From Opitutaceae bacterium (GTDB lineage: Bacteria; Verrucomicrobiota; Verrucomicrobiia; Opitutales; Opitutaceae): a stretch of DNA of 64,000 nt. Position numbers and translations under genes: made by a program. The stretch spans positions 1 to 64,000 of the forward strand of contig SXSC01000082.1 of NCBI GenBank assembly GCA_005792355.1. Direction: 5' to 3'. Positions within the stretch are counted from its first letter, which is position 1; every line of letters begins with the position of its first letter. This document shows, one piece after another, positions 1 to 30,783 of the stretch. The notes under the pieces are model-generated. The model searched no databases and was not told where the DNA came from. It was given only the letters and a program-made list of their open reading frames with translations.

Positions 1-128
1 ATCATTCGTCGCGACCTTTCACTGAGATGCGGCCACAAAACTCGCAGCTTCTTTCGAATATCACGGACATGCACCATCTACTCATAGGATTACAGCGGCT
101 TTCCAAAGATGTAAACCTTATTTATTGA
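1..128. other. AT-richer left-edge sequence ending at a stop in the giant gene's frame
   Basis: This stretch has visibly lower GC than the rest of the window. It has no resemblance to the NHL/Ig repeats that begin just after it. In the reading frame of the giant gene the last stop is TGA at 126-128. Frame 1 is open from base 1 to a TAG at 85-87 and could be the tail of an upstream gene, but I do not recognise its 28 residues. A 27-codon minus-strand ORF is also present and is too short to support. Confidence 0.5.
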
Positions 129-209
129 CGGGCACTTAGGAAAATAACTCCCGGCGGTGTCGTCACTACGCTGGCCGGTTTTGCCGGCACCTTTTTCGAT
201 TCGGACGGC

Positions 210-3200
210 ATGGGTAGCGCCGCGAGATTTTATTTTCCCCGCGCGCTGGCGGTGGATGGCCTTGGAAACGTATATGTGAATGAGCTGTATTATTCGACCA
301 TCCGCAAGATCACGGCGGGTGGAGTGGCGACTACGCTCGGCAGGGCCGGAACCGCGGGCGAATCACTCATTCCTTTTGGCGAGTCAACAATCCCGGACTT
401 TGGTGTGACGGTGGACACTGCTGGCAACCTGTATCTCTCGTATTACAACACCATCCGCAAGGGCGTCCCCTCCTACGCGGTGGCGCCGATCATCACCACC
501 CAGCCGGCGATCCAGTCGGTGGTCGTCGGTGGCACGGCGATCATCTCCGTGGTGGCGACCAGCAACGGGGCGGTGACCTATCAGTGGCGGTTTAACGGCA
601 ACCCGTTGACCGACGACGCGAAATACGCCGGAGCCACCACCGCGACCCTCACGGTTGCGAATCTGCAGACCGGCGATGCCGGGGCCTATTCGGTCGTCGC
701 GACCAACGGCTACGGTTCCACCCTCAGCGCGAGCGCGCCCTTGGTGTTCCGCGGCCAGGGTACGACCGGTCTGCAGTTCGTCGCGGTGGGGCAGGGCGGG
801 ACCCTGCTGACGAGCCCCGACGGGCTGGCGTGGACCAGTCGCACCTCCGGGTCGGTGAAACGGCTGCGGGCCGCCACGGCGAGCGCCAATCTCTTTGTCG
901 TGGTCGGCGAGACCGGCACCGTGCTCACCAGCCCTGACGGCGTCGCCTGGGCGACCCGAAACTCGGGCACGACGGACACGCTGCGGGGTGTGGTCGCCGG
1001 GCCGAACCGGTTTGTCGCGGTCGGCGGCGCGGCGGCTTCGCTCATTCTCTACAGCTCCGACGGCAACTCGTGGAGCCCGGCCCCCACCGTGCCCGCGCTC
1101 GGTACTTTGCGCGGGGTGGCGATTGGGGCCAGCGGTTTTGTCGCGGTCGGGAAAACCGGCACGATTCTGACCAGCCCCGACGGATTGTCCTGGACGACCC
1201 GCGTCTCGGGCACGAGCAGCCGGCTCGACGGCGTGATGTGGACCGGCAGTCAATTCGTGATTATCACTGAAACCGGCCGGGCGCTGACCAGCACTGACGG
1301 GATTGCATGGACATCGAACTCGGGCGGCTTCTCCTCGTGGGTGGAAGGGCTGGCGTGGGACAGCGGCAAATATATTGTGGTCGGTGCCAGCGGACAGATC
1401 GCCTCCAGCCCGGATGGAGTGCTGTGGACGTGGTCGACCACCGGCACCACGAATACGATTCACGGCGCCACGTGGAGCGGAAGCGCCAACACGCCCACCA
1501 CGAATCCGGTGGCGCTGCTGGACACGATCCAATCGCCGACCATCTCGGCTCAATCGCTGAATGTGGCGGTGGTCGCGGGACAAAACGCGGTCCTGAGTGT
1601 GACCGCGACGGGCTCCGGCTCGCTCACGTATCAATGGCGGCGCAACGGCTTCATCATCCCGGGCGCAAACGGGCCGAGTTACACGATCGCGGGGGCAAGC
1701 CAGAGCGATTCGGACACCTACGATGTCGTGATTCAAGACGGATTGACGGCGATCGTCTCCGCCCCGGCGCGGCTCGGTATCACGCCGGCACTTTATCCGC
1801 AGGCGCTGAAACTCGATCCCGCGTTCGATCTCCCCGTCGAGTCCGTCGCTGGCGGCATGATCGGCGTCGTCGTGCCGTATTCGGCGACCCAGTTTCTCGT
1901 CGCGGGCGATTTCATCCGCGTCAACGGCAGCACGTCCTATCGGCGCCTCGCGCGTTTCAACAGCGACGGCACGCTCGACACTGGCTTCGCGGTGAACTTC
2001 AACTACACCGTCAACTCCGTGCTCGTCCAGCCGGACGGCAAGATCGTGGTCGGCGGCAGTTTCACGATGGTGAATGGGCTTGCTCGCACCGGGCTTGTCC
2101 GCCTCAACGCCAACGGAACCGTCGACACCACTTTCACCACTGGCTCCGGCGCCTATGGGGTGTTCGCCATCGTCCGTCAGCCGGCCGACGGCAAGCTGAT
2201 CATCGGCGGTTCGTTCACTTTCTACAACGGTGCGGCGGCCAACCGCCTCGCGCGACTCAACGCCGATGGTACGCTCGACAGCGCCAATTTTTCCGTCGGC
2301 GCTACACAGGGGATTGCCGACACTCCCGACCCCTTCGATTTCATCGCGGTCAACGCCCTCGCCCTCGATCCCGTCACCGGCAAGGTGGTCGTTGGCGGTT
2401 CGTTCGTGGCGCATGCCAACGGGACCAGCGTCGGTCGTATCGCACGCTTCAATACAAACGGCACGCTGGACACGAGCTTCGCGACCGGCACGGGCTTCAA
2501 CGGCACCGTGAACGCCCTCGCGTTCGATGCGACCAGCAAGGTGCTGGTGGGCGGCGTCTTCACGGACTATAATGGCACCGCCGGGGTGAACCGCCTCGCG
2601 CGGCTGACCGAGACCGGGGCCGTGGACTCGACCTTCATCACCGGCACGGGTGCCAACAGCACGGTCAACGCCATCGCTTACGACGGCGCGAACGATCGCT
2701 GGCTGATCGGCGGTTCGTTCACGAGCTACAACGGCAGCGCGACCTTCAATCGCCTGCTGCGCCTCAATGCCGCGGGTGCTTTGGATACGGCGTTCAATCC
2801 GAACGTGAACAGTACGGTCAACAGCATCTTCGTGCAGGCCGCCGACAACGCCGTCGTCTTCGGCGGTTCGTTCGGCACGGTCGGCGGCACGGGATTCACC
2901 CGTTTGCTGGGCCGGGTGTCGGCGGCGGGTGCGCGCGATACCGCGGTCATGGGGAATTTCCGCGTCCCGGGCAGCGTTTCCCGGATCCTCCCGTTGCCGG
3001 GCGGCAAACTGCTCGTCGCCGGCTTTTTCACGCATCTCGGCAATACGGCGACGCTCAACCTGGCGCGGCTCAAGTCCGATCTTTCGCTCGATCTCGCCTT
3101 TTCTCCCGCGGGTGGCGATGGCTACACCTCGGCCCCCACGGTCGCCCTTTCAGGCGGCGGGTTCACCACCCCTGCCACTGCGGTGGCGGTGATCAATCCT

Positions 3201-6200
3201 TCGAATGGCCAGATCACGGGCTTCAGTGTCACGGCCGGCGGTGCGGGTTACACGTCGGCCCCGACGGTGACGCTTTCGGGCGGCGCCGGTTCGGGGGCAA
3301 CGGCGATTGCGACCGTTTCCGGCGGCGCGGTGACGGCGATCAATCTCGTTTCCAGTGCTTCCGGTCCAAATGGGTCGGTCGTCACGGCCGCGTTTCAGGG
3401 TGACGGCCGGATTCTCATCGGAGGCAACTTCACCAGTTACAATGGCGCGACCGCCAATCGCGTCGCCCGGTTGAATCCCGATCTTTCCTTCGATCCCTCC
3501 TTCAATGCCTTCGCCGGCCCCAACAGCACAGTCAACGCGCTGGCCGTCATTCCTGGCGGTGGCGTCTATGTCGGCGGAAATTTCAGCAATGTGAACAACA
3601 GCGGCGCGCCGCGCGCAGGTGTCGCGCGTCTGACGAACACCGGCGCGCTCGATCCGGACTTCAACGCGGGTTCCTCTGGTTTCCCCGTCTACGCCCTCGC
3701 GCTGCAACCCGACGGCAAGGTCCTCGCGGGTGGCCTCTTCACGAGTGTGAACGGCCAGGCGCGCAACAATCTCGTGCGCTTTACCGCCGCCGGGTCGTTC
3801 GACGACGCAATTCCCGCCGCCGGAGTGGATTGGATCGTCCGCACCATCACGTTGATCCCGGATGCGCTTCAGCCGAATGGGAAAATTCTCGTGAGCGGCG
3901 ATTTCCGGACCTACAACGGCGCGACCGTCAGGGGGCTGATCCGCTTGAATTCCGATAGCACGATCGACGGCACGTTCGCGATCGGAACATCGGTGGGCCC
4001 GGCCTACAGCGTCGTTCGGCAGCAGGACGATCGCATCCTGCTCTTCGGTTATTTGGACACGGGTGTTTCGGCCACGAGTACGTTGGCCCGGCTCAATGCC
4101 AACGGCACGTTCGATCTCTCGGCCACCCTCGCGAACGTAGATTTTCGCGCCATCAGCCAGCCCAGTTCGATGCACGTGTTGGACGATGGCACGATGCTGA
4201 TCGGCAGCGGACCGATGACCCTCTCCGGTCAGGAGCGCTTGGGGCTGTCCCATCTGATTCCCGCGGTGGCGCCCGTCATCGCCAGCGTATCGGCCTCGGT
4301 CGTACGCCCGGGCGCGTCGCTGACGATTACCGGCAGCGAATTCGTCGATGTGACCGCGGTGCGCTTCAATGGAGTCAATGGCTTTGCCGCTCCCAGCTAT
4401 ACCGTCAATTCGTCGACGCAGATCACCGTCACCGTGCCGCTCGGAGCGGTCAGCGGCCCCGTCACGGTGCAGTCGCTCTATGGCGCCGGCACGTCGGCGT
4501 CGTCACTCGCGGTCGCGCCCGATTTCCAGGTGCGCAATCCGCCGAATACCATCGCGGGCCTCCTCGGCATCGCGCGTGGCGCTGGGGTGTATGTGGCGGT
4601 CGGACAACCGGGCGATATCCTGAGTTCGTCGGACGCCATCACCTGGACCCAGCGTTACCATAGCGGCAGCACGAGCACCAATCCGCGGGCGGTGGTTTTC
4701 GCCGGTGGGCTCTTTGTCGCGGTGGGCGATTCCGGCCTCATCCTGACGTCGCCAGACGGCGTGGCTTGGACGCAACGCAGTGCCGGGGTGACCGCCAATT
4801 TCACCGGGGTGACTAATGGGGTGGGCAAGTTTGTGGCCGTGAGCACAGGCACCACAGTTGCCACCTCGCTCGACGGCATCAACTGGAGCACGAACACTGG
4901 CGGTGGTGGTTCCAACGCCGTCGCGTATGCCGGAGGCCAGTTTGTCGCCGTGGGCAACTCGGGGGCGGTTCGCACCTCACCCGATGGTGTCGCTTGGACG
5001 TCGCGCACCTCCGGCACCTCCAATGCGCTCAACGGTCTGGCGCATGATGGCATCCAATATCTGGCCGTTGGCAGTTCCAGCACACTCGTGACGTCGCCGG
5101 ATGCGGTGACATGGACCGTGCGCACGGCCCCGACTGGATTCACCGGCCTGACCTACAGCGCCGCGACTTACGCCTCTGGCAAGTTCGTCGTAGTCAACGC
5201 CAACGGTGGCGGCGTGATCACGTCCGTCGACGGTATCAACTGGACCGGGGCGAACAACGACGGGAACAGCGGTGGCATTGATATGCGCGCCGTGCTCCAT
5301 GACGGCACGCAATTCGTGGGCGCGGGCTTCCCGGGCGTCGTCTATACTTCGCTGGACGGTGTCGCCTGGACGATGCGCAACGAGCAGACGCGCTCGGCCT
5401 TTGCCGACATCATTTATGGCAACGGTCGCTATGTGGCCCTGGGGAATTCCAACTCCACGTTTGGCACTTCGGTCGATGGGGCGGCGTGGACGTTTGGCAA
5501 GATCATCCCGAACAGCGGCACGAGTTTCAACGACATCGCCTATGGCAACGGTCTCTTTGTGGCGGTTGGATCCGCGGTGATTTACTCGACGGCTGACGTG
5601 GTCAATTGGTCCAACCGCACGCCGGGCGGATCGTTCACGCTGAACGGCGTGGCCTATGGCGGCGGAGCATTTGTCGCCGTGGGCAATGCCGGTGTCGCGT
5701 ATCGCTCGACCGACGGCGCGATTTGGGCGTCCGCCGCCACCGGCGTGACCGCCAACCTGATCGGGATCGCCTACGGAGCGGGAAGCTTTGTCGCGGTCGG
5801 TGCCAGCGGCACGGTGCTCACCTCGCCGGATGGCAGCGTCTGGACCCCGGTCAGCTCCGGGACGGCCAGTCAGCTCAATGGTATCAACTACAGCGGTACA
5901 CAGTTCGTCGCCGTCGGCGCCAGCAGCACCGTCCTGACCTCCGCCACGGGTGGCGCGTGGATCGGGCAGAGTCTTGGCGCCACGGGCGTCAACCTCGTCG
6001 ACGTCGCGATCGGAGAAGGCTATTATCTGGCGACGAATTCGACCAACACCACCAGCCTGTATGCCTCGGCGGACGGCGTGGTTTGGGCGCGGCTTGATTT
6101 GACCGGCCACACGCTTTCGCAGAATTCCACTTCGGGAATCGGGTTTGGCAACGGTCGCTTCGTGGTGGGCGGCACCGCGGGAATCATCGTTTCCTCCAAC

Positions 6201-15200: not shown

Positions 15201-18200
15201 CGCCTCGCGCGACTCAACGCGGACGGCTCGCTCGACTTCGGCTTCGACCCTGGCGCCGGGGCGGACAACACGGTGGCGGCCATCGGTGTGGCGGGTGATG
15301 GTTCGGGCCGGATCGTGATTGGCGGTTCCTTCCTCAACTACAATGGGGTGGCCGCCAATCAGTTGGTCGGCCTCACCTCGACCGGAGTGCGCGACGTTGC
15401 GTTTGCGGTCGGCACGAGTGCCTCCTCGACCGTCTCCGACATCGTGGCCCAGCCGGATGGAAAATTCGTCGTTGGCGGAGCGTTCACGTCGTTTAACGGC
15501 ACCACCGCGAACCGGATCGTGCGTCTCACGACGGCTGGCGCCGTCGATACCTCCTTTACCACCGGAGGCACTGGTCTGAGCAGCACGGTCAACTCCCTTC
15601 TCCTGCAGACCGATGGCAGCGTGGTGGCGGGTGGCGCGTTCACCACCATCAACACGCTTGCGCATTCCCCCATCGTTCGCTTCAGCGGGGCGGGGGCGGT
15701 CGATCCGGCGGTCAATCCGGTGGTCCTCGCCAACGTCTCCGTCTCCGCCATGGCGCCGCTGCCGGGCGGGAAGATCCTCGTCGGTGGTAGCTTCACGCAG
15801 GCCAACGGTGTCTCGAAATTCAATCTCGCCCGCTACAACGCCGATGGAGCCCTCGACGGTGGCTACAACGCCGCGGTGACGCCGGAAACCAGCATCCTGG
15901 GAACCGTCTCCAGAATTCTCGTACGCCAGGATGGCAAGAGTGTCATCGTGGGGACGTTCACTGCGGTCGGCGGGGTAACGGCCAATCGCATCGCACGGCT
16001 GAACCCGGATGGCACGCTCGATCCCGCGTTCAATCCGAATGGAGCCGGACTCAGCGCTTCGCCGACGATGGTCGTGGCGCAACCGGACGGCAAGCTGCTC
16101 GTCTTCGGCAGCATCACAGCCTCCACCTATAATGGCGTGGCGCGCAGTTCGCTGATTCGGCTCGATGCGGATGGCGCGCTCGATTTCGCCTTCAATCCGA
16201 TCCTGAATTCGTCGGTGGCCGCGGTCGCGCTGCAGCCGGACGGCAGAATTGTGATCGGCGGCGCCTTCACAGTGGTGAATGGTGTCTCGCAGATCAGGCT
16301 GGCGCGGCTTAACGCCGATGGCTCCCTGGACACCGGATTCAACGCGCTAAACGGGCCGAGCTCGGCCCCGACGTCACTGCTGCTGCAGCCGGACGGAAAG
16401 GTTGTCGTCGGCGGGAGTTTCACGACGTTCAACGGCCTGACCAAAAACCGCCTGGCCCGGGTTAACAGCAATGGCGCGCTGGATATGTCGTTCGATGCCG
16501 GCACGGGCCCGGCCAGCACGGTCAGCGGAATGATTCTCCAGGAAAACGGCCGGATTGTGCTGTTTGGGCCGTTTAACTCTGGTTTCGGGCTCCCCGCCCG
16601 GGCGACGATGGCGCGCGTGCTGCCAAACGGGTCCGTCGACCCGACGTTTGCGCTCTACGGATCAGTGGGTGGGAGCTCGGTGATTCCGGGTTCGACGGTC
16701 AGCGCGGCGTTGATCATGGACGATGGCTCCATGCTGGTGGCGGGAACCAACTTCACGGATGGCGCGATTTTCCGTCCGAGCGTGGCTCGCCTGGTCCCGG
16801 CGGTCGCACCGACCATCACCCTGCAACCCACCGACCAGATCGCGTCGCTCGGTGGCAGCGCGACGTTTACGGCGGCGGCGGCGGGCAGTGCTCCTCTGGC
16901 CTACCTGTGGCTGAAGAATGGAACAGCGATGCCCGGTGCTACGAATCCGACGCTCACCCTCACCAACCTGCAGTTGTCCGATGTCGCCGAATACACACTC
17001 AATGTCCGCAACGGCGCTGGCTTTGCCGAGACAAACGCGGTGGTGCTCACCGGCGGCACGGTGCCGACGATCGTTACCCAGCCGCAAGCCGCGACCGTGC
17101 TCGCCGGGCAGGGGCTGAACCTGTCGGTCAATGCCAGCGGTACGGGTCTCACCTACCAGTGGTCGAGAAATGGCGTGCCGATCCCCGGTGCGACCGTCTC
17201 GACCTTGAGCCTCGGTGCCGTGGGTTTTGACGCCGCCGGAAACTACAATGTCAACGTGGCGAGTGGCCTGGCCTTGACCTCGTCGGACTATGTGCGCGTG
17301 GAGGTCAATGCGGGGACCTATCCAAATTCGCTCCGCCCGCTCGCTTCGTTTGGGACGCGGGTGGAGACAGCCGCCAGTGTCGCCGTGATCGCAGCTCTCG
17401 GCGACGGCCGATTCTATGCCGCCGGAACGTTTACGTCCGTGGATGGCACTGCACGTTATGGCGTGGCACGGTTTCTGGCCAACGGGGCGCTGGATACGAC
17501 GTGGACGCCGGCACCGATCACCGGCAGCACGGTGACGACGATGGTCGCGCAGCCGGATGGGAAGATCATACTCGGTGGGGCGTTTTTATCGGTGGGAGGG
17601 GTGAGTTCCTCCCGGATTGTGCGGCTTAATGCCGATGGTTCGATGGATTCCGGATTTGCCACCGGCTCCGGCTTCTCGAGCACCGTCAATGCGCTGGCGC
17701 TTCAAGCGGACGGAAAGATCGTCGCGGGCGGTGCCTTCACCAGCATCAACAGTTTCGCCGCCCAGCGGATCGCCCGGCTAAACGTCGATGGTACCGTGGA
17801 CACGAGTTTCAACTCGATCCTTGGGTTCGACGGTACGGTGAGTGCCGTCGCGTTGCAGGCCGACGGAAAGATCGTCGCGGGCGGGTCATTCACCAGCTAC
17901 AATGGGGTGATCGCCACCCGGATTGCGCGGCTCAACGGCGATGGTACACTCGACAGCGGTTTCGTGACTGGCGCTGGCTTCGACAGCACCGTCTCCGCGC
18001 TGGCAGTACAAACGGACGCTCGGATTGTCGTTGGCGGCGCATTTGCGACCTACAATGGCGCTTCATCCAGCCGGATCGCCCGGCTTCACCCGAGCGGAGT
18101 CCGTGATTCCTCGCTACCGGTTGGCGCGGGCTTCAACAGCACCGTGTCGGCGCTCGCGGTGCAGGCTTCCGACGGGAAGATTCTGGCGGGCGGCAGTTTT

Positions 18201-21200
18201 ACGACTTACAATGGGGTCCCCGCCAACCGCCTTGCCCGGCTCGATGCCGTTGGAGGTGCGCTTGACGCTTCGTTTAACACGACGCTCGGAGCCGGCTTTA
18301 ACAACACCGTCAGCACGGTTGTCGTCCAGGCCGGGGGTGAGGTCCTGGCTGGTGGTTTGTTCACCCTTCTGAACAATCTCGACCGCGGCGGAATCGCGCG
18401 CCTTCAGGCCAACGGTTCGATTGATGCGAGCGTCGTCGCGGCTTGCCGCGCTCCGGGCACGGTGTTCGCGACGCAACCCGTCGCCGGTGGCAAGCTGGTG
18501 GTTGGCGGTGCGTTCACTCATGTGGACGGTGTTCCGCTGGCCAACCTCGCGCGCTTCAACGCCGACGGCTCGCTGGATGCGGTGTTCCACACGGCACTTG
18601 GTATTGGTTTTGGCGGTACCGTCCGCGCGCTGCTGAATCAGGCGGATGGAAAGCTGCTCGTGGGCGGCTCGTTTACGACGGTCAATGGCGCCGCCGCCAC
18701 GCGCATCGCGCGGCTCAACGTCGACGGTGGACTCGACACGGCGTTCACGGTCGCCACGGGTCTGGGTTTTAACAGCACGGTGCTGGCGCTGACCCCGTGG
18801 GCCGATGGCAAGGTTCTGGTTGGTGGTTCCTTCACGACCCTGAATGGCGGCTCCGCCAACTTCATCACGCGGCTGGCGGCCAGCGGGGCTCGTGATGAAT
18901 TTTTCAACACTTATCCCGGCACCGGCTTTAATTCCACCGTCAACGCGATCGCCGTGCAATTCGACGGTACGACCCACAAGATTGTGGTCGGCGGCACCTT
19001 CACCACGTTCAACGATGCGACGCTGACGAATCTTGTGGCGGGTGCGCTGGCCCGCCTCGACGGCGACGGGAAATTCGATCCGAGTTTCGCACTTGGCACC
19101 GGTTTCGAGATTGCGTCGCTTGCACCAAGCGTCACGGCCCTCGCAATTCAGCCGGACAACAAGATTATCGCCGTCGGAGGGTTTAGCAGTTACAACGGCT
19201 CGCCCGAGTTCAATCTCGCGCGGCTCAACGTCAACGGCACCCATGACCCGAGCTTTGCCACCGGCGATGGCGCGGATGGCACGTCGGTCAGCGCGGTCAC
19301 GCTGCAGGCGGATGGAAAGATCGTCGTGGCCGGCAATTTCCAAAACATCAACGGCCAGCGGCGCGGTGGCCTCGCGCGACTGCTCGCCACTGGTGAACTC
19401 GACCTGACCTTTGGGATCCAGTTCGGGGGCACCACGCCGGCCAGCACGATCAACAGCGTGCGCGCCCTGCCCGATGGCACGCTGCTGCTGGGCGCGGGAC
19501 GATTGGATTTCGTCGACCGGATCACGAGCGGTCTTTCTCGGCTCGAGTCGAACGCCTCGATCCTCGCCATCATCTCGCAGTCATTTGATGGCACTTTCCA
19601 GGCTGGCAGTTCGCGCACCCTGGTCGTGACGGCGACGGGAATCGCACCGCTGTCCTATCAATGGCGGCGCAGTGGCGTGGATATCACGGCCACGGCCGGC
19701 CGTTTCGACGGGACGACGACGGATACACTCAGCATCCTTAGCGCGCAGTCGGCAGATACCGGCGCCTATACGGTGACCGTGACCGACAGCACGGGCACTG
19801 TGACGAGCAAACCGTGGAACGTGGTGGTCTACGACGCGATCCCGGTGATAGGCACGCAGCCGAACGGCACCTTTGGTTTTGTGTTCCAGTCCGGGACGGT
19901 CGGCTCGATCAACGTCAGCGCTGGTGGCTCCGCACCGTTGGTGGCGCAGTGGCAGAAAAACGGGACGGACGTTCCCGGCGGCGTGGGTTTGTCCAATGCC
20001 TATTCGTTGCCGCTGCTGGGCGCCCAGGTCGGCGATGCCGGTCTTTTCGGCGTAACCCTGACCAATACCTTTGGTGTCGTCGCTGCCACGCCGGCCCGGT
20101 TCTGGGTGAACGAAGAAGCCGGATGGACCTGGCACAATCCCCTGCCCACGTCCCAGCCGCTCGGAATTTTATCCGTCATCAATGGCCAGTTTGTCGCGAC
20201 CGGTCAGCGCGGGGTCCGGCTGGCGTCGACCGACGGTTCGAGTTGGACGGCTTTGCCGGTGCTCAGTCAGAACAACGCCGCGGGCTATGCGTTTGGCAAC
20301 GGGCGGCACCTGTTGCTAGGGAGCCAAGGGTTCACGGCCGTTTCAACGGATGGCGTCGACTGGCAGCGCGGCAACGTCGGGGTCTTCGAATCGACCGTGG
20401 ATGTGACCTTCGGCAATGGATTGTTTGTCGCAATCAGCACGGTGGGCGCTGCGGTGTCTCCCGGCGGAAAAATTCTGACTTCGGCGGATGGAAAATCATG
20501 GACCGAGCGGCTGAATTTCGCCGCGGGTTCCTTGACCTCTGTGAAGTATGGCAATGGCGTGTTTGTGGTCCTGACCTCGACCAACGAGGTCTTGCGCAGC
20601 TCGGATGCCATCACTTGGAGCGCCCCAATCGGAGTGCCGTTGCAAAACGCGATGCTCCGCTTTGTCAATGGCCAGTACTTCCTGGGTGGAACGCAGGGTG
20701 AATTGTATGTGTCGTCTGACGGGGTGAACTGGACGCCGCGGTTCACGTCGACCAGCGACAGCGTGCGGGGACTGGCCTTTGGCGCCGGGCAGTACATCCT
20801 GACGGGCGACAACGGTCTGCTGCTGACCTCGCCCGATGCCGTGACTTGGACGTCCCGCGCCAGCGGGACCCGGCTGAATTTGCGCGATTCAGCCTATGCG
20901 AACGGGACATGGGTGGTGATTAGCAACCAGACCACGCCGCCGGTAATCCTGACCTCACCCGATGGTGTCACTTGGACGAATCGGATGAACACGGCGGTGG
21001 TCGCCGACCAAACTCTGAATGACTTCGCCAGCGACAGCAGCAGTCTCGTCGCCGTTGGCAACCTTGGGGTTATTGCGCGCTCGACCGATGGAAATTCGTG
21101 GGCGGCGATCCCGTCCAGCACGACCAACGCCCTCCTCGATGTGGTGTTTGCCAATGGCAGTTATCTCGCGGTGGGGGCAAGTGGCACCATGGTCAGTTCA

Positions 21201-23792
21201 TCGGATGGAGGAATTACCTGGAGTGCGTTGGCCTCTGGCACGACCACCACGCTTCGCTTTGTGAATCGACTCAACGGGACCTTCCTCGCCTTGGGCGACA
21301 GCGGGGTGCTACGCTCGTCCCCCGACGGAGTGGTGTGGAGTGCCGTGACCTCGGGCACCATCAACGGGCTTTTCGGTGCCGCTTACGGTGGCGGCAACTA
21401 CGTCGCGGTTGGCAGCCTGGGCACGATCCTGACGTCCCCGGATGCGACGATCTGGACGGCTCGCACTTCGGGTGTCGTCACCTCGTTGAACGAGGTGGCG
21501 TTTGGCAACGGCGTGTTTGTGGCCGTTGGCGCGACGGGCACAATTCTCAGCTCACCTGACGGCCTTACCTGGACCCCGCGCGGTTTCAATGGCATTGAAA
21601 CCTACCAGTCGGTCATTTTCTCCGGCGGGCGTTTCTATGTCGGAGGTGGCACCGAAACGCTTTACACGTCGACGGACGGTGTGGTTTGGGAGGGAAGACA
21701 TACCGGACGTTCCTCCGGTTTCAATGGCCTTGCCGAATTTAACGGCCGCATTTTCGGTCTCGGCACCGGAGGCACGATCGTGTCGGCCAGCTTGGTGCCC
21801 TCGATTGTGCAACCGCCCGCTTCGCAGCTGGCGTTCATCGGCCAGCCTGCGACCCTGCGGGTGGTCGGAGCCGGTTCGCCCGTCCCAGTGGCATATCAGT
21901 GGCGCAAGAATGGGGTGGCGGTTCCCGGCGCCACCACGGCTACTCTTACGATTGCCAGCCTCCAGGCCGAAGATACCGGTCCTTACGATGTCGTGCTCAC
22001 CACCGCCATTGGCAGCACGACGTCCCAGGTCGCCACCCTTGGAAGCGGCGCCCAGCCGTTCTTCACGTCCGTCCCGGCCACCACGCAGGTCGTTCAGCAA
22101 GGCGGCTCCATTACTCTCAGTGTCACCGCGACTGGAACTCCGGCTCCAACGTTTCAATGGCAGCGCAACGGGGCGAATCTCCCCGGCGCCACGGGATCAT
22201 CCCTTCCGATCATCAATGCCGTGCAGGGCAATGCCGGAACTTACCATGTTATTGCCACCAACGCCGGTGGCAGCATACCCAGTACACCCACCGCGCTCGA
22301 CGTCATTGATCGAAGTCTCCTCAACCTGCTTTCGCAGGTAACGGTGCCCGCCAAGGGATCGGTGAGCGTCAGCTTTACGATCGAAGGTGGCCCCAAGAAC
22401 ATCTTTGTCCGGGGCGTGGGCCCCGCGCTCACCGCCCTACCGGGCCTGCTGGCAGATCCCCGGCTCACGCTCGTGAACAGCTCCCTTGCCACGATCGCGA
22501 CCAACGACGATTGGGGCGCGCCGCAGACCGTGGCCGGTGGCCCGACGCCCGCCTCCGCCGGCGCGATCACCGCCGCCTCCGCCGCAGTTACCCCCAGCCC
22601 TGGTTTGATCATCGGCAGCAAGGACGCCGCGATCCTTGTGGCACTCACCCCCGGCACCTACACCGTCGTGCTCGACGGCGTGGGTGGAACCGGCGGCCTC
22701 GCTCAACTCGAAGTGATCGACGCCGACACCGGCCTCTGGCCGCGCTTGGCCATGTTCGCCCTGCGCGGTCCGGTCACCGGCGACAAGAACCTGAACGTCG
22801 GCGTCAACCTCTCCGGTACGGTCAGGCGAAAATACCTCATCCGCGTTCTCGGCCAGTCGCTCGGCGTCAATGCCAACCTTGACAACGGTGTGCTCATCGA
22901 CCCCGTCATCACTTTTTACAAAGGGGCGAGCGTGATCGCCAGCAATGACGATTCCGAATCGAACAGTGTCCTCGATGCCGCGACGGTGACCGCCGGAGCG
23001 CAGCCGCGTGTCGGTATCAGCTCGGAGGATTCCTCCACGTTCGACTCGACCCTCTTCCTCGAACTCGAGCCTGGTTCGTACACGGCCGACATCCGCTCGT
23101 ATTATGCACCGATCGAATCGGGTGACGCGTTGTTTGAAATCTTCGCGGTCGATGATCTGCGACCGGCCGCCATCGCCCCGGCGATCACCTACTTCTCGGC
23201 GCACCAGCAGGCGGTGAACAACGGTGACGCCGTGCTGGCCGTCGTCACCGTCGCGAAACCGGCGGCGACGTTCCAGTGGCGGCGGTATGTGAACGGTGTT
23301 CCCACCGCCATCCCCGGTGCCACAACGTCGGTCCTTCGGCTCACCGGCCTCCTGCCGTCTGATTCCGGCAGCAGCTTTGATGTCGTGATTTCCAGTGGCG
23401 CCAACACCATCACGAGTCCGTCGCGGACGGTCACGGTCCTGCCTGATTTCCACTCGGCCGACATCAACCGCGATCAACAGATCAGCATCTACGAGCTCCT
23501 TCGTGTAATCCAACTTCGCAACTACACTACCTCCGCCTCCGTCATCACCGGCGAGTATCACACGGAGTCCGGCACGGAGGACGGCTTTACCGTGGGCCCC
23601 GGCGCGCTGACGAGCTTCCATTCGGCCGACTCCAACCGCGACGGCCGGATCAGCGCCAACGAACTCACCCGCGTCGTCGTGCTTTACTTTGCCGACTACC
23701 TTACCAATCGCCCCGGCCGGTATCACGCGCGCGTCGGCACCGAGGATGGCTTCGCGCCTGGCCCGTCCCCGAGCCCGTCACTTCAACCCTGA
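210..23792 (+). CDS. Giant multi-domain repeat protein (NHL / Ig-like / Asp-box / delta-60 / IPT-TIG / EF-hand tail), 5'-truncated
   Basis: 7,860 codons with no internal stop. Approximate residue layout: NHL repeats 1-90; Ig-like 93-181; Asp-box-like block (FVAVG...SPDGxxWT units, BNR/Ycf48-like) 188-428; Ig 441-527; delta-60 block 532-1350; IPT/TIG 1354-1437; Asp-box block 1441-2000; two Ig 2004-2171; delta-60 2181-3064; IPT/TIG 3071-3154; Asp-box 3161-3711; two Ig 3714-3887; three further delta-60 blocks, each separated by two Ig domains, to 6451; two Ig 6451-6634; Asp-box 6637-7194; two Ig 7194-7367; a pair of FVRGVGPAL-type beta domains 7371-7657; Ig 7658-7744; two EF-hand loops near the C-terminus. 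The Ig domains carry the YQWRRNG core. Delta-60 units read like LARLNxDGTLDxxF...VxxQPDGKIxxGGxF. There is no signal peptide: the frame stays open upstream to 129 and already encodes NHL sequence (RKITPGGVVTTLAG), so the true N-terminus is missing. The role is probably surface or secreted adhesion/carbohydrate contact (inference). Translation from ATG 210 is uncertain. Confidence 0.85.
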   Translation: MGSAARFYFPRALAVDGLGNVYVNELYYSTIRKITAGGVATTLGRAGTAGESLIPFGESTIPDFGVTVDTAGNLYLSYYNTIRKGVPSYAVAPIITTQPAIQSVVVGGTAIISVVATSNGAVTYQWRFNGNPLTDDAKYAGATTATLTVANLQTGDAGAYSVVATNGYGSTLSASAPLVFRGQGTTGLQFVAVGQGGTLLTSPDGLAWTSRTSGSVKRLRAATASANLFVVVGETGTVLTSPDGVAWATRNSGTTDTLRGVVAGPNRFVAVGGAAASLILYSSDGNSWSPAPTVPALGTLRGVAIGASGFVAVGKTGTILTSPDGLSWTTRVSGTSSRLDGVMWTGSQFVIITETGRALTSTDGIAWTSNSGGFSSWVEGLAWDSGKYIVVGASGQIASSPDGVLWTWSTTGTTNTIHGATWSGSANTPTTNPVALLDTIQSPTISAQSLNVAVVAGQNAVLSVTATGSGSLTYQWRRNGFIIPGANGPSYTIAGASQSDSDTYDVVIQDGLTAIVSAPARLGITPALYPQALKLDPAFDLPVESVAGGMIGVVVPYSATQFLVAGDFIRVNGSTSYRRLARFNSDGTLDTGFAVNFNYTVNSVLVQPDGKIVVGGSFTMVNGLARTGLVRLNANGTVDTTFTTGSGAYGVFAIVRQPADGKLIIGGSFTFYNGAAANRLARLNADGTLDSANFSVGATQGIADTPDPFDFIAVNALALDPVTGKVVVGGSFVAHANGTSVGRIARFNTNGTLDTSFATGTGFNGTVNALAFDATSKVLVGGVFTDYNGTAGVNRLARLTETGAVDSTFITGTGANSTVNAIAYDGANDRWLIGGSFTSYNGSATFNRLLRLNAAGALDTAFNPNVNSTVNSIFVQAADNAVVFGGSFGTVGGTGFTRLLGRVSAAGARDTAVMGNFRVPGSVSRILPLPGGKLLVAGFFTHLGNTATLNLARLKSDLSLDLAFSPAGGDGYTSAPTVALSGGGFTTPATAVAVINPSNGQITGFSVTAGGAGYTSAPTVTLSGGAGSGATAIATVSGGAVTAINLVSSASGPNGSVVTAAFQGDGRILIGGNFTSYNGATANRVARLNPDLSFDPSFNAFAGPNSTVNALAVIPGGGVYVGGNFSNVNNSGAPRAGVARLTNTGALDPDFNAGSSGFPVYALALQPDGKVLAGGLFTSVNGQARNNLVRFTAAGSFDDAIPAAGVDWIVRTITLIPDALQPNGKILVSGDFRTYNGATVRGLIRLNSDSTIDGTFAIGTSVGPAYSVVRQQDDRILLFGYLDTGVSATSTLARLNANGTFDLSATLANVDFRAISQPSSMHVLDDGTMLIGSGPMTLSGQERLGLSHLIPAVAPVIASVSASVVRPGASLTITGSEFVDVTAVRFNGVNGFAAPSYTVNSSTQITVTVPLGAVSGPVTVQSLYGAGTSASSLAVAPDFQVRNPPNTIAGLLGIARGAGVYVAVGQPGDILSSSDAITWTQRYHSGSTSTNPRAVVFAGGLFVAVGDSGLILTSPDGVAWTQRSAGVTANFTGVTNGVGKFVAVSTGTTVATSLDGINWSTNTGGGGSNAVAYAGGQFVAVGNSGAVRTSPDGVAWTSRTSGTSNALNGLAHDGIQYLAVGSSSTLVTSPDAVTWTVRTAPTGFTGLTYSAATYASGKFVVVNANGGGVITSVDGINWTGANNDGNSGGIDMRAVLHDGTQFVGAGFPGVVYTSLDGVAWTMRNEQTRSAFADIIYGNGRYVALGNSNSTFGTSVDGAAWTFGKIIPNSGTSFNDIAYGNGLFVAVGSAVIYSTADVVNWSNRTPGGSFTLNGVAYGGGAFVAVGNAGVAYRSTDGAIWASAATGVTANLIGIAYGAGSFVAVGASGTVLTSPDGSVWTPVSSGTASQLNGINYSGTQFVAVGASSTVLTSATGGAWIGQSLGATGVNLVDVAIGEGYYLATNSTNTTSLYASADGVVWARLDLTGHTLSQNSTSGIGFGNGRFVVGGTAGIIVSSNPFADTTVLTTQPVVSTAVAPSGTASLAVAASGSGLTYQWYAGRSGDISSPVAGATSASFTTPAVTQLSRFWARVTGANGTVDSATATVTSTSSAPVIALHPLDTSVTVGQPATFTVSATGTGTLTYQWRRRGFAIAGATGTGYTIATAAQSDADNYDVAVFDGFNTTASNPARLGVAPTAYPTALKLDPSFNLSVETDVGGTISAVAPYSATQYIVAGDFIRIGGNSSIRRVARINSADGSVDPTFAANVNGFVSAILVQPDGKVVLGGFNFTTVNGLARTNLVRLNSDGSVDVAFNVGGAGPNGTRSDVLAIARQPSDGKLIIGGGFTAYNGTTRNYVARLNADGTLDTTFNASITSATNNVVDAIVVQPDGNILIGGAFLTVNSVSSARVARLLGTTGAIDTTFAVGTGAGSTVNAVALEASGKVIIGGAFTTYNGTAINRLARLTATGGLDATFNAAPGTGYTSAPSVTISGGGGTGATATATVAGGVISGVTIGSGGSGYTTAPTVTFSGGGGTGAVAAATISGGAITAINLIGAGPSSTVTSMALDATGNLLIGGSFTSYNGITRNRLARLSTSGALDAAFNPNLNGTVNGLAVQSDGAVLFGGTFTTVGGQPVRLVSRVSSSGTYDAAINILFRAAGSVNRILPLSGGKLLIGGAFTHLGNTPTLNLARLNTDQSIDTTFAPAGGGGYTAAPTVTISGGGGTGATATASVNLSNGQVSAFTVTAGGSGYTSAPTVSIAGGGGTGASATATFSAGAVTSVSLNSSAAGPNASVTAAALQGDGKIVIGGAFTSYRGTTATRIARLNSDLTIDSSFNTTTGADNIVYALELISGGGLYIGGIFTSVNGVARAGVARLASNASVDTAFNAGSAAFTVYALGLQRDGKVVAGGSFTSVNGQARNNVVRFLPDGTFDSAFPVTGANSTVRAVAIQPDGQILIGGDFSSYNSTPINSLARLNFIDGSLDPAFPLGTSLASAVYSILRQEDAGVLVFGHVSTTVAGAPSTRYLGRVNPNGIVDPTLGVLTGTNLSPSQPSSLFVMDDGRVLIGTNFVTLSGQERTGLIRLIPAAPPVVIALSATAVRPGASITITGTDFVDVTAVRFSGPGGTAATTYTVNSPTQITVTVPIGAVTGPVTVQTMYGTASSAATLTVAPDFQLRNPFNTVAAFTGIAVGNGVYVAVGTPGDILSSTDGIAWTQRYNSGSGIATFRAVTFANDLFVAVGDSGLIMTSPDGVTWTQRVLFTGASFFGVTYGAGKFVAVSTSSTVATSVDGLTWNIFVSTGGGSSNAVSFGGGQFVAVGASGAIRTSPDAVTWTARTSGTTNALNGVTYGGSQYVAVGTTGTVLTSPDAVTWTIRSATGFTSTKFDAVVFAGGKYVVAGEGGVLTSTDGITWAGINNINGGIDMRAVLHDGAQYVGAGFSGIYTSPDAAAWTLRNQQSRVGLGDVVYGDGRFVAVGTGNSTFLTSADGVTWAVGQFVPGGGQAFNDVAYGAGAFVAVGSSTIYTSRDGAATWVNYGPPGSFTLNGVVCGGGVFVAIGNSGVIYRSTDAVNWTAATSGTTNNLLCLYYGAGNFVTVGANGTILTSPDGNTWTSVSSGTANQLNGIIFTGTQFVAVGASSTVLTSPTGAVWTTQSLGTTGVNLTDVAFGDGYYVATNSTLSGTLFVSTDAVTWGQAVLTNHLINQSTAAGVGFGNGRFVVVTHVGNLVSTNPASDTVVLTTQPIAAATVTPGQTVALSVDASGAGVTYQWYQGSSGDTSALIPGATNSSYTTPPIAQPTNFWARVTSGGVSVDSRTSRITGNIAGPVFAVQPVDVQVNVGQTATFTASATGSGGAVTYQWRRNGIALPGATTTSYSVVGASRIDMDYYDLVASDAFTSTASAAARLSVVPNAYPQGMRMDPAFAHFFERPLATLNKIVVQTDGKILVAGDFTGFAGAARTRLARFNADGTHDTTFTPPFVNIGVSTLAVQADGKVLVGGDFFNVGGNTQRNRLIRLNADGTLDSGFNTVGSGPNSTVTNIIVQPDAQILIAGSLSTYNGVAAAGIARLNVDGSLDPTFSATAQSVSDLALQTDGKIVIGGTFTSVSGINRVRIARLNANGTLDATFDPGTGANGTVSAVALDASGRVVIGGSFTNFNGGTINRIARLQPTGALDTTFVVGTAMNNTVSDIVVQSDGAVIAGGSFTSYNGATSNRLVRLTTAGAIDSTFAIGSAFTFTVNTLALQSDGQVIVGASSNTFNGVSRNSCMVRLSALGVVDTTLNPTSLRNGTVNAIIPLSGGKTFIAGEFSQIDGVARGYFAKLNADGTIDPSFNAGAGTNGAVTAAYLRADGKVIILGSFTTVNGAAATRIARLNSDGTLDPTFSSDGGIGSTLGYIVPQPDGRLLIGGNGVTSFTYAGVTRSSLARINADGTLDPTFVPPTFNGAVTWPAVQRDGKIVAVGAFTTVNGAAQVRVARLNADGTPDASFNATVGTGADQDLYSVSLQPDGRILIGGDMTVFNGVSRNRLLRLNPDGTLDTTISTGSSVGDDVRQILVQENGQLLLRGFFTTVGAANTVSLGRVAATGGVDSSFAAYGLAATPSQAGFNPLVLADDGTILTGGYLYVLVEGVERTGLLRLIPATAPAITTQPLAQTAAVGDSVTFSVTAGGSGPFTYQWTKNGVPISGATNTTLTLNNIQFGDLASYVVVVGNVVSSVASAGATLNGSTAPVITSPPATVTVTAGTPATLSVSATGAGLTYQWRRSGIPITGATSPSMSIPSTTRTDADAYDVVVANGSGFTTSLPAWINVAPTVYPQGLRLDGTYVPVIESTATSAVLINRVAPAPDGKFVAVGYFRSVDGHQVNRVARFTATGAIDSTFVPPNTGLGALLSVAVQSDGKVLIGGATGILGGVGSTNLGCLVRLQSNGTLDTGFNLGTGIQGGNVNAIVVQPDGKILIGGSFTTYKDDSTRARLIRLNADGSIDAAFAPIVGSTVSAIALQSDARILIGGSFTAVNNVVRTRLARLNADGSLDFGFDPGAGADNTVAAIGVAGDGSGRIVIGGSFLNYNGVAANQLVGLTSTGVRDVAFAVGTSASSTVSDIVAQPDGKFVVGGAFTSFNGTTANRIVRLTTAGAVDTSFTTGGTGLSSTVNSLLLQTDGSVVAGGAFTTINTLAHSPIVRFSGAGAVDPAVNPVVLANVSVSAMAPLPGGKILVGGSFTQANGVSKFNLARYNADGALDGGYNAAVTPETSILGTVSRILVRQDGKSVIVGTFTAVGGVTANRIARLNPDGTLDPAFNPNGAGLSASPTMVVAQPDGKLLVFGSITASTYNGVARSSLIRLDADGALDFAFNPILNSSVAAVALQPDGRIVIGGAFTVVNGVSQIRLARLNADGSLDTGFNALNGPSSAPTSLLLQPDGKVVVGGSFTTFNGLTKNRLARVNSNGALDMSFDAGTGPASTVSGMILQENGRIVLFGPFNSGFGLPARATMARVLPNGSVDPTFALYGSVGGSSVIPGSTVSAALIMDDGSMLVAGTNFTDGAIFRPSVARLVPAVAPTITLQPTDQIASLGGSATFTAAAAGSAPLAYLWLKNGTAMPGATNPTLTLTNLQLSDVAEYTLNVRNGAGFAETNAVVLTGGTVPTIVTQPQAATVLAGQGLNLSVNASGTGLTYQWSRNGVPIPGATVSTLSLGAVGFDAAGNYNVNVASGLALTSSDYVRVEVNAGTYPNSLRPLASFGTRVETAASVAVIAALGDGRFYAAGTFTSVDGTARYGVARFLANGALDTTWTPAPITGSTVTTMVAQPDGKIILGGAFLSVGGVSSSRIVRLNADGSMDSGFATGSGFSSTVNALALQADGKIVAGGAFTSINSFAAQRIARLNVDGTVDTSFNSILGFDGTVSAVALQADGKIVAGGSFTSYNGVIATRIARLNGDGTLDSGFVTGAGFDSTVSALAVQTDARIVVGGAFATYNGASSSRIARLHPSGVRDSSLPVGAGFNSTVSALAVQASDGKILAGGSFTTYNGVPANRLARLDAVGGALDASFNTTLGAGFNNTVSTVVVQAGGEVLAGGLFTLLNNLDRGGIARLQANGSIDASVVAACRAPGTVFATQPVAGGKLVVGGAFTHVDGVPLANLARFNADGSLDAVFHTALGIGFGGTVRALLNQADGKLLVGGSFTTVNGAAATRIARLNVDGGLDTAFTVATGLGFNSTVLALTPWADGKVLVGGSFTTLNGGSANFITRLAASGARDEFFNTYPGTGFNSTVNAIAVQFDGTTHKIVVGGTFTTFNDATLTNLVAGALARLDGDGKFDPSFALGTGFEIASLAPSVTALAIQPDNKIIAVGGFSSYNGSPEFNLARLNVNGTHDPSFATGDGADGTSVSAVTLQADGKIVVAGNFQNINGQRRGGLARLLATGELDLTFGIQFGGTTPASTINSVRALPDGTLLLGAGRLDFVDRITSGLSRLESNASILAIISQSFDGTFQAGSSRTLVVTATGIAPLSYQWRRSGVDITATAGRFDGTTTDTLSILSAQSADTGAYTVTVTDSTGTVTSKPWNVVVYDAIPVIGTQPNGTFGFVFQSGTVGSINVSAGGSAPLVAQWQKNGTDVPGGVGLSNAYSLPLLGAQVGDAGLFGVTLTNTFGVVAATPARFWVNEEAGWTWHNPLPTSQPLGILSVINGQFVATGQRGVRLASTDGSSWTALPVLSQNNAAGYAFGNGRHLLLGSQGFTAVSTDGVDWQRGNVGVFESTVDVTFGNGLFVAISTVGAAVSPGGKILTSADGKSWTERLNFAAGSLTSVKYGNGVFVVLTSTNEVLRSSDAITWSAPIGVPLQNAMLRFVNGQYFLGGTQGELYVSSDGVNWTPRFTSTSDSVRGLAFGAGQYILTGDNGLLLTSPDAVTWTSRASGTRLNLRDSAYANGTWVVISNQTTPPVILTSPDGVTWTNRMNTAVVADQTLNDFASDSSSLVAVGNLGVIARSTDGNSWAAIPSSTTNALLDVVFANGSYLAVGASGTMVSSSDGGITWSALASGTTTTLRFVNRLNGTFLALGDSGVLRSSPDGVVWSAVTSGTINGLFGAAYGGGNYVAVGSLGTILTSPDATIWTARTSGVVTSLNEVAFGNGVFVAVGATGTILSSPDGLTWTPRGFNGIETYQSVIFSGGRFYVGGGTETLYTSTDGVVWEGRHTGRSSGFNGLAEFNGRIFGLGTGGTIVSASLVPSIVQPPASQLAFIGQPATLRVVGAGSPVPVAYQWRKNGVAVPGATTATLTIASLQAEDTGPYDVVLTTAIGSTTSQVATLGSGAQPFFTSVPATTQVVQQGGSITLSVTATGTPAPTFQWQRNGANLPGATGSSLPIINAVQGNAGTYHVIATNAGGSIPSTPTALDVIDRSLLNLLSQVTVPAKGSVSVSFTIEGGPKNIFVRGVGPALTALPGLLADPRLTLVNSSLATIATNDDWGAPQTVAGGPTPASAGAITAASAAVTPSPGLIIGSKDAAILVALTPGTYTVVLDGVGGTGGLAQLEVIDADTGLWPRLAMFALRGPVTGDKNLNVGVNLSGTVRRKYLIRVLGQSLGVNANLDNGVLIDPVITFYKGASVIASNDDSESNSVLDAATVTAGAQPRVGISSEDSSTFDSTLFLELEPGSYTADIRSYYAPIESGDALFEIFAVDDLRPAAIAPAITYFSAHQQAVNNGDAVLAVVTVAKPAATFQWRRYVNGVPTAIPGATTSVLRLTGLLPSDSGSSFDVVISSGANTITSPSRTVTVLPDFHSADINRDQQISIYELLRVIQLRNYTTSASVITGEYHTESGTEDGFTVGPGALTSFHSADSNRDGRISANELTRVVVLYFADYLTNRPGRYHARVGTEDGFAPGPSPSPSLQP
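3111..3362 (+). repeat. Glycine-rich GYTSAPTV insert 1 within a delta-60 repeat
   Basis: 84 codons made of two tandem units of the form GxGYTSAPTVxxSGG followed by a GATAxAxV-like strand. It interrupts one delta-60 unit between the LDLAFSPA end and the GPNGSV continuation, both of which are contiguous in ordinary units of this protein. Confidence 0.75.
7584..7817 (+). repeat. Glycine-rich GYTSAPSV insert 2 within a delta-60 repeat
   Basis: 78 codons, again two tandem GYT(S/T)AP(S/T)VT units with GGGGTGA cores. It lies between LDATFNAAP and GPSSTV of a delta-60 unit, the same structural position as insert 1. Confidence 0.75.
8268..8516 (+). repeat. Glycine-rich GYTAAPTV insert 3 within a delta-60 repeat
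   Basis: 83 codons with two tandem units (GYTAAPTVTISGGGGTG and GYTSAPTVSIAGGGGTG). It sits between IDTTFAPA and GPNASV, the same loop as inserts 1 and 2. Its closest relative is insert 1, which has the same NLSNGQ/NPSNGQ spacer, as expected from the module duplication. Confidence 0.75.
11621..19560 (+). repeat. Three shorter ~2.7 kb modules inside the giant gene (Ig - delta-60 - Ig)
   Basis: After the two long modules the pattern continues without the IPT/TIG and Asp-box parts. Ig domains start near 11621, 14320 and 17060, each followed by a hinge (YPQGMRMDP, YPQGLRLDG, YPNSLRPLA) and a delta-60 block, then by a second Ig with a KNG core. The spacing of about 2.7 kb is regular. The shorter modules look like derivatives of the longer ones that lack the TIG-propeller segment, or the ancestral form before it was inserted. 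Confidence 0.7.
23448..23789 (+). other. C-terminal duplicated EF-hand/dockerin-like tail of the giant protein
   Basis: Two copies of a roughly 55-residue unit begin FHSAD and each holds a canonical 12-residue EF-hand loop: D-I-N-R-D with I and terminal E (loop starts at residue 7751), and D-S-N-R-D with I and terminal E (loop starts at residue 7807). Each loop is followed by a helix-like EL(L)RVV/IQL stretch and a (G)xYHxxxGTEDGFxxGPG signature. This resembles a dockerin-type calcium-binding pair. It may serve in Ca-dependent folding, surface retention or partner docking (inference). Confidence 0.7.
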
Positions 23793-29716: not shown

Positions 29717-30783
29717 CGGGTGGAAAAACGATAAATGGTCGTGGAGCGCAAGGTCGCGCCGGGACGCAGGATGGTGGAGGGAAACGCGGGCTGGTTTGGC
29801 GAGTCGGGGAAATGCTGGGTCTCCAGGCAAAACCCATGGCGCTGGCGGTAGACCTGGCCGCGTTTCGCCGCGAACGAGCCATCGAGAAAATTGCCGGTGT
29901 AGAATTGCACGCCGGGCTCGGTCGTGAGCACCTCCATGACGCGCCCCGACTTCGGCTCGTGCACGGTTGCGGCGAGCACCGGCTCGTCGTCCGGCGCCGC
30001 ACCGCGATCGATCGCGAAGTTGTGATCGTAGCCGACCCCGAACTGCAACTGCTCGTGCGGCTGGTCGATGCGTTCGCCAATCGGGTGGGGGAGGGTGAAG
30101 TCGAGCGGTGTGCCCGCGACTGGAGCCAGATGCCCGAGCGGAATCATCCCGGCATTGACGGGAGTGTAACGGCTCGCCTGCAAGCTGACCACGTGGCCGC
30201 CGATCGGACCCGCGCCTTCGCCGGCGAGATTGAAATACGAGTGGTTGGTGAGATTGACCGGCGTGGCGCGATCGGTCGTCGCCACGTAGTCGATCCGGAG
30301 GGCGTTGTCCGCCGTCACCGTGTAGCTGACTGTTACGTCGAGATTACCCGGGAATCCCTCCTCACCGTCGGGGCTGCGGTAGGTGAGTTGCAGGGCCGGT
30401 CCCGGCGACGAGGCCACGGGCGTCGCCCGCCACACCTTTTTGTGAAAGCCCTCAATCCCGCCGTGCAGGCAGCAGGGGAGGCCGGCGGGCGAATTGTTTT
30501 GGGCGAGAATGTAGTCGCGACCGTCGAGCGAAAAGCGTCCGCCGGCGATCCGGTTGCCCACCCGGCCGACGATGCAGCCAAAGTAGGGTGAATGCGCGGC
30601 GTAGTCCGCCACGCCCTCAAAGCCGAGCACCACGTCGGCGAGTTGGCCGTGCCGGTCGGGCGCGAAGAGCTTCACCACGGTGCCGCCGTAGTCCGCGATG
30701 TCGGCCCGGAAGCCCCGCGCGTTTTGCAGGGTGTGGAGGTGGGTGGCGCCGCCGTCGGGTGTCTGGCCGAAGGAAATTTTCAT
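29713..30783 (-). CDS. galM: Aldose 1-epimerase (mutarotase)
   Basis: 356 residues, the usual family length. It interconverts alpha and beta anomers of aldoses such as galactose and glucose. Signature segments are GRVGNRIAGGRF near the N-terminal third, LHGG, the catalytic-His strand NLTNHSYFNLAG, and the C-terminal TTEPGVQFYTGN that carries the catalytic Glu. ATG 30783 is preferred; a TTG at 30825 would add 14 residues unlike the family. No signal peptide, so cytoplasmic. It ends in an ATGA overlap with the cytochrome gene and lies 70 bases downstream of the LacI-type regulator on the same strand, which suggests a small operon for sugar use. Confidence 0.9.
   Translation of the reverse strand: MKISFGQTPDGGATHLHTLQNARGFRADIADYGGTVVKLFAPDRHGQLADVVLGFEGVADYAAHSPYFGCIVGRVGNRIAGGRFSLDGRDYILAQNNSPAGLPCCLHGGIEGFHKKVWRATPVASSPGPALQLTYRSPDGEEGFPGNLDVTVSYTVTADNALRIDYVATTDRATPVNLTNHSYFNLAGEGAGPIGGHVVSLQASRYTPVNAGMIPLGHLAPVAGTPLDFTLPHPIGERIDQPHEQLQFGVGYDHNFAIDRGAAPDDEPVLAATVHEPKSGRVMEVLTTEPGVQFYTGNFLDGSFAAKRGQVYRQRHGFCLETQHFPDSPNQPAFPSTILRPGATLRSTTIYRFSTR

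Follow-up and report, generated by a model that had tools for sequence, protein, structure and literature searches.

According to the available sections of two reports, several phyla of the PVC group show a high tendency toward huge proteins (PMC11573180), and giant genes are predicted in many PVC lineages (PMC12057145). The accessible part of a third source describes propellers that are highly repetitive and, in a protein from Verrucomicrobia, one that is disrupted (PMC9218822). In the bee symbiont Apilactobacillus kunkeei the consecutive genes Giant1-5 encode extracellular proteins of 3,000-8,000 aa, as stated in the sections at hand (PMC12863079). Literature searches retrieved no paper on the delta-60 repeat and, among the matches listed, no published description of the propeller-chain family considered here.

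The locus studied lies in the window, i.e. the whole stretch of DNA that was analysed, which comprises bases 1-64000 of the 101,940-bp contig C25 in an assembly (G000) of 8.4 Mb, 416 contigs, 98% completeness and 5.06% contamination. Very probably it represents the 3′ four fifths of a gene for a giant exported propeller-chain protein of the surface or matrix, split by an ISAzo13-like element, with its front on another contig of the same assembly, C53.

Extent and modular organization of the giant frame

On the + strand an open reading frame extends over 7,860 codons from an ATG at 210 to 23792, inside a stop-free stretch of 7,887 codons (129-23789), and the uninterrupted 23.6 kb frame reported by the first-pass annotation is thereby borne out. 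Base composition alone would give a chance stop about once per 38 codons, and the openness of the frame corresponds to a log10 P of about -90. The third-position GC content is 0.74-0.82 over the whole length. Judged from the sequence, the ATG at 210 is not the true start of the gene: it lies inside an NHL blade, where a signal-peptide-like stretch is absent, and the in-frame stop upstream of the frame (126-128) is part of an insertion-sequence end that is repeated on seven contigs. The window frame probably amounts to no more than about the last four fifths of a larger gene, with the 5′ part probably on C53, and the earlier reading of the frame as a whole gene is not supported. The 3′ part occupies 139..23792 (+ strand; ~7,884 of 9,986 codons), with the stop codon at 23790-23792.

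Own profiles, built from these very sequences and applied at a score of at least 6 bits, reveal 63 delta-60, 40 Asp-box, 15 Ig, two NHL and two "VRG" modules (a name given here) and two tail motifs in the window part, with the features below all on the + strand. Two NHL blades (141..368; own HMM), the end of an array begun on C53, are followed by five Asp-box (SPDGxxW) repeats (762..1469; own HMM) and by the 13 repeats of delta-60/DUF5122 array 1 (1893..4127; Pfam and own HMM). Next come an IPT/TIG domain (4305..4601; PF01833, 23.8 bits, cutoff 20.9), an Asp-box array of 12 repeats (4575..5987) and delta-60 array 2 with 12 repeats (6960..9413), and then a second IPT/TIG domain (9450..9749; PF01833, 25.5 bits against the same cutoff), a further Asp-box array of 12 repeats (9723..11144) and delta-60 array 3 with 13 repeats (11946..13922). 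Delta-60 arrays 4 (12 repeats, 14652..16499) and 5 (13 repeats, 17379..19415), both detected with the own HMM, precede an Asp-box array of 11 repeats (20175..21731; own HMM), which has Ycf48 and glycosylhydrolase-type NCBIfam matches below cutoff. The 3′ end encodes paired VRG domains (22335..23105; own HMM), partly DVUA0089-like (NF038127, 32.4 bits, cutoff 29), and a tail with two HSAD..D...TEDGF-type motifs (23445..23699), EF-hand/dockerin-like in alignment and below the Pfam cutoffs.

Membership of the delta-60/DUF5122 family is supported above the curated cutoffs: TIGR02608 scores 344.3 bits (cutoff 76.5), with 13 stretches in delta-60 array 3, and, with the frame taken in thirds, PF17164 scores 554, 903 and 565 bits. 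Pfam and NCBIfam also support Ig (Ig_3), TIG and NHL modules and, weakly, EF-hand; a Pfam NHL scan of the genome gave no C25 match among the matches listed. The window contains only two NHL blades because its frame begins inside the NHL array. The five repeat families and EF-hand tail proposed earlier thus stand as far as delta-60, Ig, TIG and Asp-box are concerned, with NHL reduced to two blades and EF-hand weak. The paired VRG domain can be taken as an additional module type beyond those five families.

The start of the next gene (23792..27433, + strand) overlaps the stop codon of the giant gene as TGATG, and the two genes are possibly translationally coupled. Its product contains six Ig-like stretches and, judged by eye, a signal-peptide-like N-terminus. 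Also beside the giant gene lies a minus-strand frame (27479-29830) with TPR and multihaem cytochrome-like matches.

An insertion sequence at the contig start

The first bases of the window (1..135, - strand) form the right end of an ISAzo13-like insertion sequence, with an imperfect terminal inverted repeat at ~110-135 and a start-like transposase ORF of 25 aa (77 to 3, - strand) without significant family match. They are followed by TTA (136..138), taken as a 3-bp target-site duplication, and an identical TTA closes the gene part on C53. Bases 1-136 are identical on seven contigs (C25, C22, C87, C157, C167, C299 and C317), in every case at a contig end, and the sequence beyond this 136-bp copy differs on each of them. 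The opposite (left) end of the element, with a related terminal repeat, is found at the ends of nine further contigs, and C160 carries a 93% copy. This left end probably encodes the C-terminus of an ISAzo13 transposase (PF07592, E 8.5e-6; NF033519, E 3.7e-7), the NF033519 match covering the C-terminal 30 residues with 29.5 bits against a full-length cutoff of 200. End-to-end comparison reveals an imperfect terminal inverted repeat at both ends of the element, and the imperfect left repeat is present on C53. Counted over the nine left and seven right ends, the C160 copy being left out, the 3-bp flank repeats are TTA at five left and three right ends, TTG at one and one, and TAA at three and three. 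Terminal inverted repeats and a short target duplication, which are general features of insertion sequences, are thus both found for the interrupting element.

Only the two ends of the element were seen in the assembly; its middle was not found there. The right end has no match in 56 related genomes besides its own, the element has none in plasmid records, and an exact 31-base element pattern has none in the genome collection. A search for the right terminal repeat at further contig ends, with at most three mismatches, returned the same seven ends alone.

The same element also splits a second NHL gene, at the starts of C289 and C299, with TTA flanks and in-frame continuation. An RNA element at the contig start, e.g. 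a group II intron, was rejected, as positions 1-1000 gave no Rfam match up to E 1.

The front part of the gene

On C53 the left end of the element coincides with the end of an NHL-type ORF that spans 2,149 codons of the minus strand. With the ATG at C53:6443 chosen as the start codon because of the signal-peptide-like stretch recognized there by eye, 2,102 codons and 1 nt lead up to the element; behind the TTA, the window takes up coding at the second codon position, in a phase that fits C53. The joined gene would comprise 2,102 + 1 + 7,883 = 9,986 codons, corresponding to ~1.0 MDa, and six Cys are present in 9,984 residues. Behind the signal-peptide-like N-terminus the C53 part contains Ig, TIG and NHL modules, with own profiles counting 22 NHL blades, three Ig and two VRG.

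An uninterrupted giant frame is present in a relative, contig C6 of genome G025 (G025:C6, 46572-67139; Opitutae MAG RH-23may17-1042, CANJIU010000006.1). Here the order VRG2-Ig-NHL12-Ig-Asp-box6-Ig-delta60 is found in one frame, and the same order is observed across the C53/window join. At the corresponding site G025:C6 has 12 NHL blades versus 10 on C53 plus two in the window, a count that may include a junction blade twice. Three upstream genes on C53 match upstream genes on G025:C6 in the same order, with 59, 88 and 92% identity and with extra genes intervening among them on C53; on the downstream side, the frames in C25 23790-40000 gave no match to the 4.9 kb examined 3′ of the G025:C6 gene. 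The TTA is carried by five left ends and is by itself insufficient to pick C53. In swapped pairings, judged by hand for two of the five TTA left ends (C53 and C289, the others being C238, C332 and C72), joining C289 to C25 gives a stop codon, and joining C53 to C299 gives a frame that loses the NHL pattern. On the basis of the common TTA, the codon phase, the module order of G025:C6 and the kept upstream neighbours, we strongly infer that C53 carries the front part of the window gene, which would lie on a separate assembly piece because a mobile element jumped into the gene.

Perhaps only a fraction of the population carries the insertion, in which case many cells would have the intact gene and the assembler would have kept the disrupted path. 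We entertain this tentatively, and it would be compatible with a gene split between C53 and the window. The frames are undecayed on both sides of the element, and contigs of mixed populations break at multicopy elements anyway; however, a search with the first 600 bases of the window revealed no contig on which the site is unbroken and returned the window itself, element ends, and otherwise only matches of 67-74% and two short words.

Relatives and distribution of the split gene

The relative on G025:C6 is similar to the split gene in module order, tail and upstream neighbours, but is unsplit and shorter (6,856 codons), with 42-59% identity in the stretches compared and with fewer repeats (38 vs 63 delta-60 and 28 vs 40 Asp-box). 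This single frame with the same module order is the opposite of the several small ORFs in relatives that, according to the first-pass annotation, would have spoken against the giant frame. Matched frames of more than 5,000 codons occur in at least G000, G010, G023, G024 and G025, and the size limit used for giant proteins, a single frame of over 5,000 residues (PMC11573180), is exceeded here (7,887) as well as in two relatives (6,856 and 5,754). With more giant frames in the same genus, the frame does not stand alone as an object of extreme size. The relative on G024:C11 has a signal-peptide-like N-terminus, as judged by eye.

The last 529 residues match 38 of 57 genomes (own included), many of them via the VRG region only, and the last 113 residues match 11 of the 27 genus genomes. 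A tail scan of named genomes gave 35 loci, with titles of Opitutaceae, Opitutae, Opitutia, Opitutus or Verrucomicrobia MAGs and one of Taylorbacteria. G024 and G025 are represented among these loci, and the genus of the window is thereby placed with Opitutae. A motif-bearing frame was read in 33 of these loci; in 30 of the 33, no more than 45 residues separate a loosely defined motif from the frame end, with at least one of the 30 (L106) looking spurious, and six of the 33 reach 3,400 codons or more within the DNA examined.

The contig labelled Candidatus Taylorbacteria (L088, JAPLZI010000038.1) bears the tail motif, which may reflect either transfer or misbinning. In the genome studied here, another delta-60 frame of 1,976 codons is located on C306 (14,408 bp). 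The tail of a 2,633-codon frame neighbouring the front part (C53:8293-16191, minus strand) is 62% identical, and this frame and the adjacent one (16235-18109) look like a local duplication.

Selection and growth of the arrays

By the Nei-Gojobori method, dN/dS is 0.257 when the two internal superblocks are compared, and comparison with G025:C6 gives 0.204 and 0.382; these values reflect the past and mostly the time before the insertion, with synonymous changes near saturation (pS 0.60-0.66). For the other two forward frames the ratios are 1.29/2.03, 1.37/2.57 and 1.10/1.45. One reverse frame also has ratios below 1 (0.41, 0.37 and 0.59), probably because the free third positions are in phase with its codons, and the remaining reverse frames range from 1.07 to 2.19. 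These ratios indicate that purifying selection acted in the giant frame in the past.

The first-pass annotation had attributed the openness of the frame to continuing selection or to recent loss of its start, and had named dN/dS as a check. Both explanations turn out to apply in part: ratios of 0.20-0.38, versus 1.1-2.6 in the other forward frames, speak for past constraint, and the split by the ISAzo13-like element accounts for the loss of the start, which we infer to be recent because no decay is seen on either side of the insertion. That the frame is a decaying pseudogene, open only through its GC-rich composition, is improbable. The 5′ end is indeed cut off by the element and an antisense frame of up to 883 aa exists, but the constraint is specific to the giant frame and its openness is far beyond chance.

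The two Asp-box arrays that flank delta-60 array 2 share 64% identity, versus 47-49% with the G025:C6 arrays, and a duplication of the superblock in this lineage is therefore probable. For delta-60 arrays 1 and 2 the identity with the G025:C6 arrays is 50 and 57%, and between themselves it is 55% over one 299-residue stretch, giving a mixed picture as to whether the duplication preceded or followed the split from G025. Overall, propeller-chain proteins appear to grow by duplication of whole superblocks.

Predicted folds of the repeat arrays

The model of delta-60 array 3 (11841-14060 modelled) is all-beta and propeller-like, with a pLDDT of 83.4 and a pTM of 0.78. Its best match in the PDB is to chains of BT4663 (E 8e-17), which we take to be a double propeller, and lower matches include AIP1, titled as two seven-bladed propellers, and EML1, titled as a tandem propeller. 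The Asp-box array at 9723..11144 (9660-11220 modelled; pLDDT 79.8, pTM 0.59) has a predicted beta-propeller fold and matches repetitive propeller, GH74, tandem WD and LRP structures; an Asp-box array profile matches Ycf48 structures with an E-value of 1.5e-14. Whole-array TM-scores are low, ~0.2-0.6 among the matches listed, and the alignments behind the models are shallow (7 rows for delta-60 and 5 for Asp-box), such that rigid propeller counts are unreadable from them. The delta-60 and Asp-box arrays are thus predicted to form beta-propellers linked by Ig-like domains.

The fold predicted for the Asp-box array resembles that of GH74 xyloglucanases (TMq ~0.6 in several rows), and dockerin-like tails occur on enzymes in other systems. 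It is nevertheless unlikely that the protein is a polysaccharide-degrading enzyme instead of an adhesin or matrix protein, as no glycosidase family exceeded its cutoff in Pfam and NCBIfam scans of the pieces, with NF045728 coming closest at 44.7 bits against 175.

The C-terminal tail and cohesin-type domains

The tail motifs score 25.6 bits with EF-hand_5, against a cutoff of 25.9. A classical dockerin type I tail was rejected, with 18.5 bits for PF00404 (Dockerin_1) under a cutoff of 22.9, and the available sections of a paper on cellulosome-displaying bacteria mention the PVC group once and contain nothing on this tail (PMC11557425). The genome itself has four cohesin matches (C268:34343-34675; C70:794-1132 and 9666-9998; C232:314-625), the best with 38.5 bits against a cutoff of 24.1. 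Behind three of these four cohesin-type domains lies a dockerin-like C-terminus of another type.

Among the 27 genus genomes cohesin matches occur in three, G000, G024 and G025, which are those found with tail-bearing giant frames. Cohesin gave no match in eight of the 11 tail-bearing genus genomes, nor in G010 and G023, whose giant frames matched outside the tail. The co-occurrence has a Fisher p of 0.0003 with this post hoc grouping and of 0.056 when the 11 tail-bearing genomes are compared with the others. Given the post hoc p-value, the value of 0.056 otherwise, the position of G000, G024 and G025 among the largest genomes and the eight cohesin-free tail bearers, docking of the tail onto cohesin-bearing proteins is kept as a lead. 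We give little credence to the wider proposal that in the three genus members with tail-bearing giant frames the proteins constitute a non-enzymatic, Ca-dependent scaffold at the cell surface, in which the double TEDGF tails of megadalton propeller strings dock onto cohesin-bearing surface proteins, with chains that grow by superblock duplication and are turned off via transposition.

Proposed model and comparison with known systems

In the proposed model, the intact gene would encode a protein of ~9,986 residues and ~1.0 MDa with an N-terminal signal peptide. The NHL, Asp-box and delta-60 arrays would fold into beta-propellers joined by Ig-like and TIG domains, followed by the paired VRG domains and two calcium-binding-like motifs at the C-terminus. 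The protein would be exported as an elongated component of the surface or matrix, in which the many propeller faces may bind polymers or neighbouring cells and the C-terminal tail may hold the protein at the cell surface. In the assembled genome the ISAzo13-like element would have inserted into the NHL array, after which the exported product would end at ~2,100 residues and a 7,884-codon remainder would be left with neither a recognisable start nor a signal peptide. Export, propeller number, binding, anchoring and loss of function are predictions of this model. That the window part is instead an independent gene starting at or near 210, never joined to the C53 part, is very improbable, since that ATG, in spite of the intact frame behind it, falls within a blade and has no signal-peptide-like stretch, the upstream stop belongs to the insertion sequence, and G025:C6 is unbroken across the corresponding point.

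For the split gene, the analysis illustrates how a transposon junction can be taken for the gene start when a giant gene is read from one contig, and how such a misreading can be corrected from target repeats, codon phase and synteny with no need for reads. A further outcome is a family of propeller-chain proteins of ~5,700 to 10,000 residues in uncultivated Opitutae, of which uninterrupted relatives exist.

The interrupting element resembles the ISAzo13 family in a putative transposase C-terminus that matches NF033519 and PF07592, in inverted repeats and in 3-bp flank repeats. Like the giant proteins of the PVC group, the gene product is a very large protein encoded in a single frame of an environmental bacterium, with a proposed surface role; unlike in those proteins, beta-propeller arrays dominate, an architecture that the available sections of the two reports do not describe (PMC11573180, PMC12057145). 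The Giant1-5 proteins of Apilactobacillus kunkeei have beta-solenoid N-terminal domains, and the sections at hand make no mention of propellers (PMC12863079), whereas propeller arrays dominate in the present gene. In the best reading, giant surface or matrix proteins of this sort are a known kind, and the split by an insertion sequence is the main correction.
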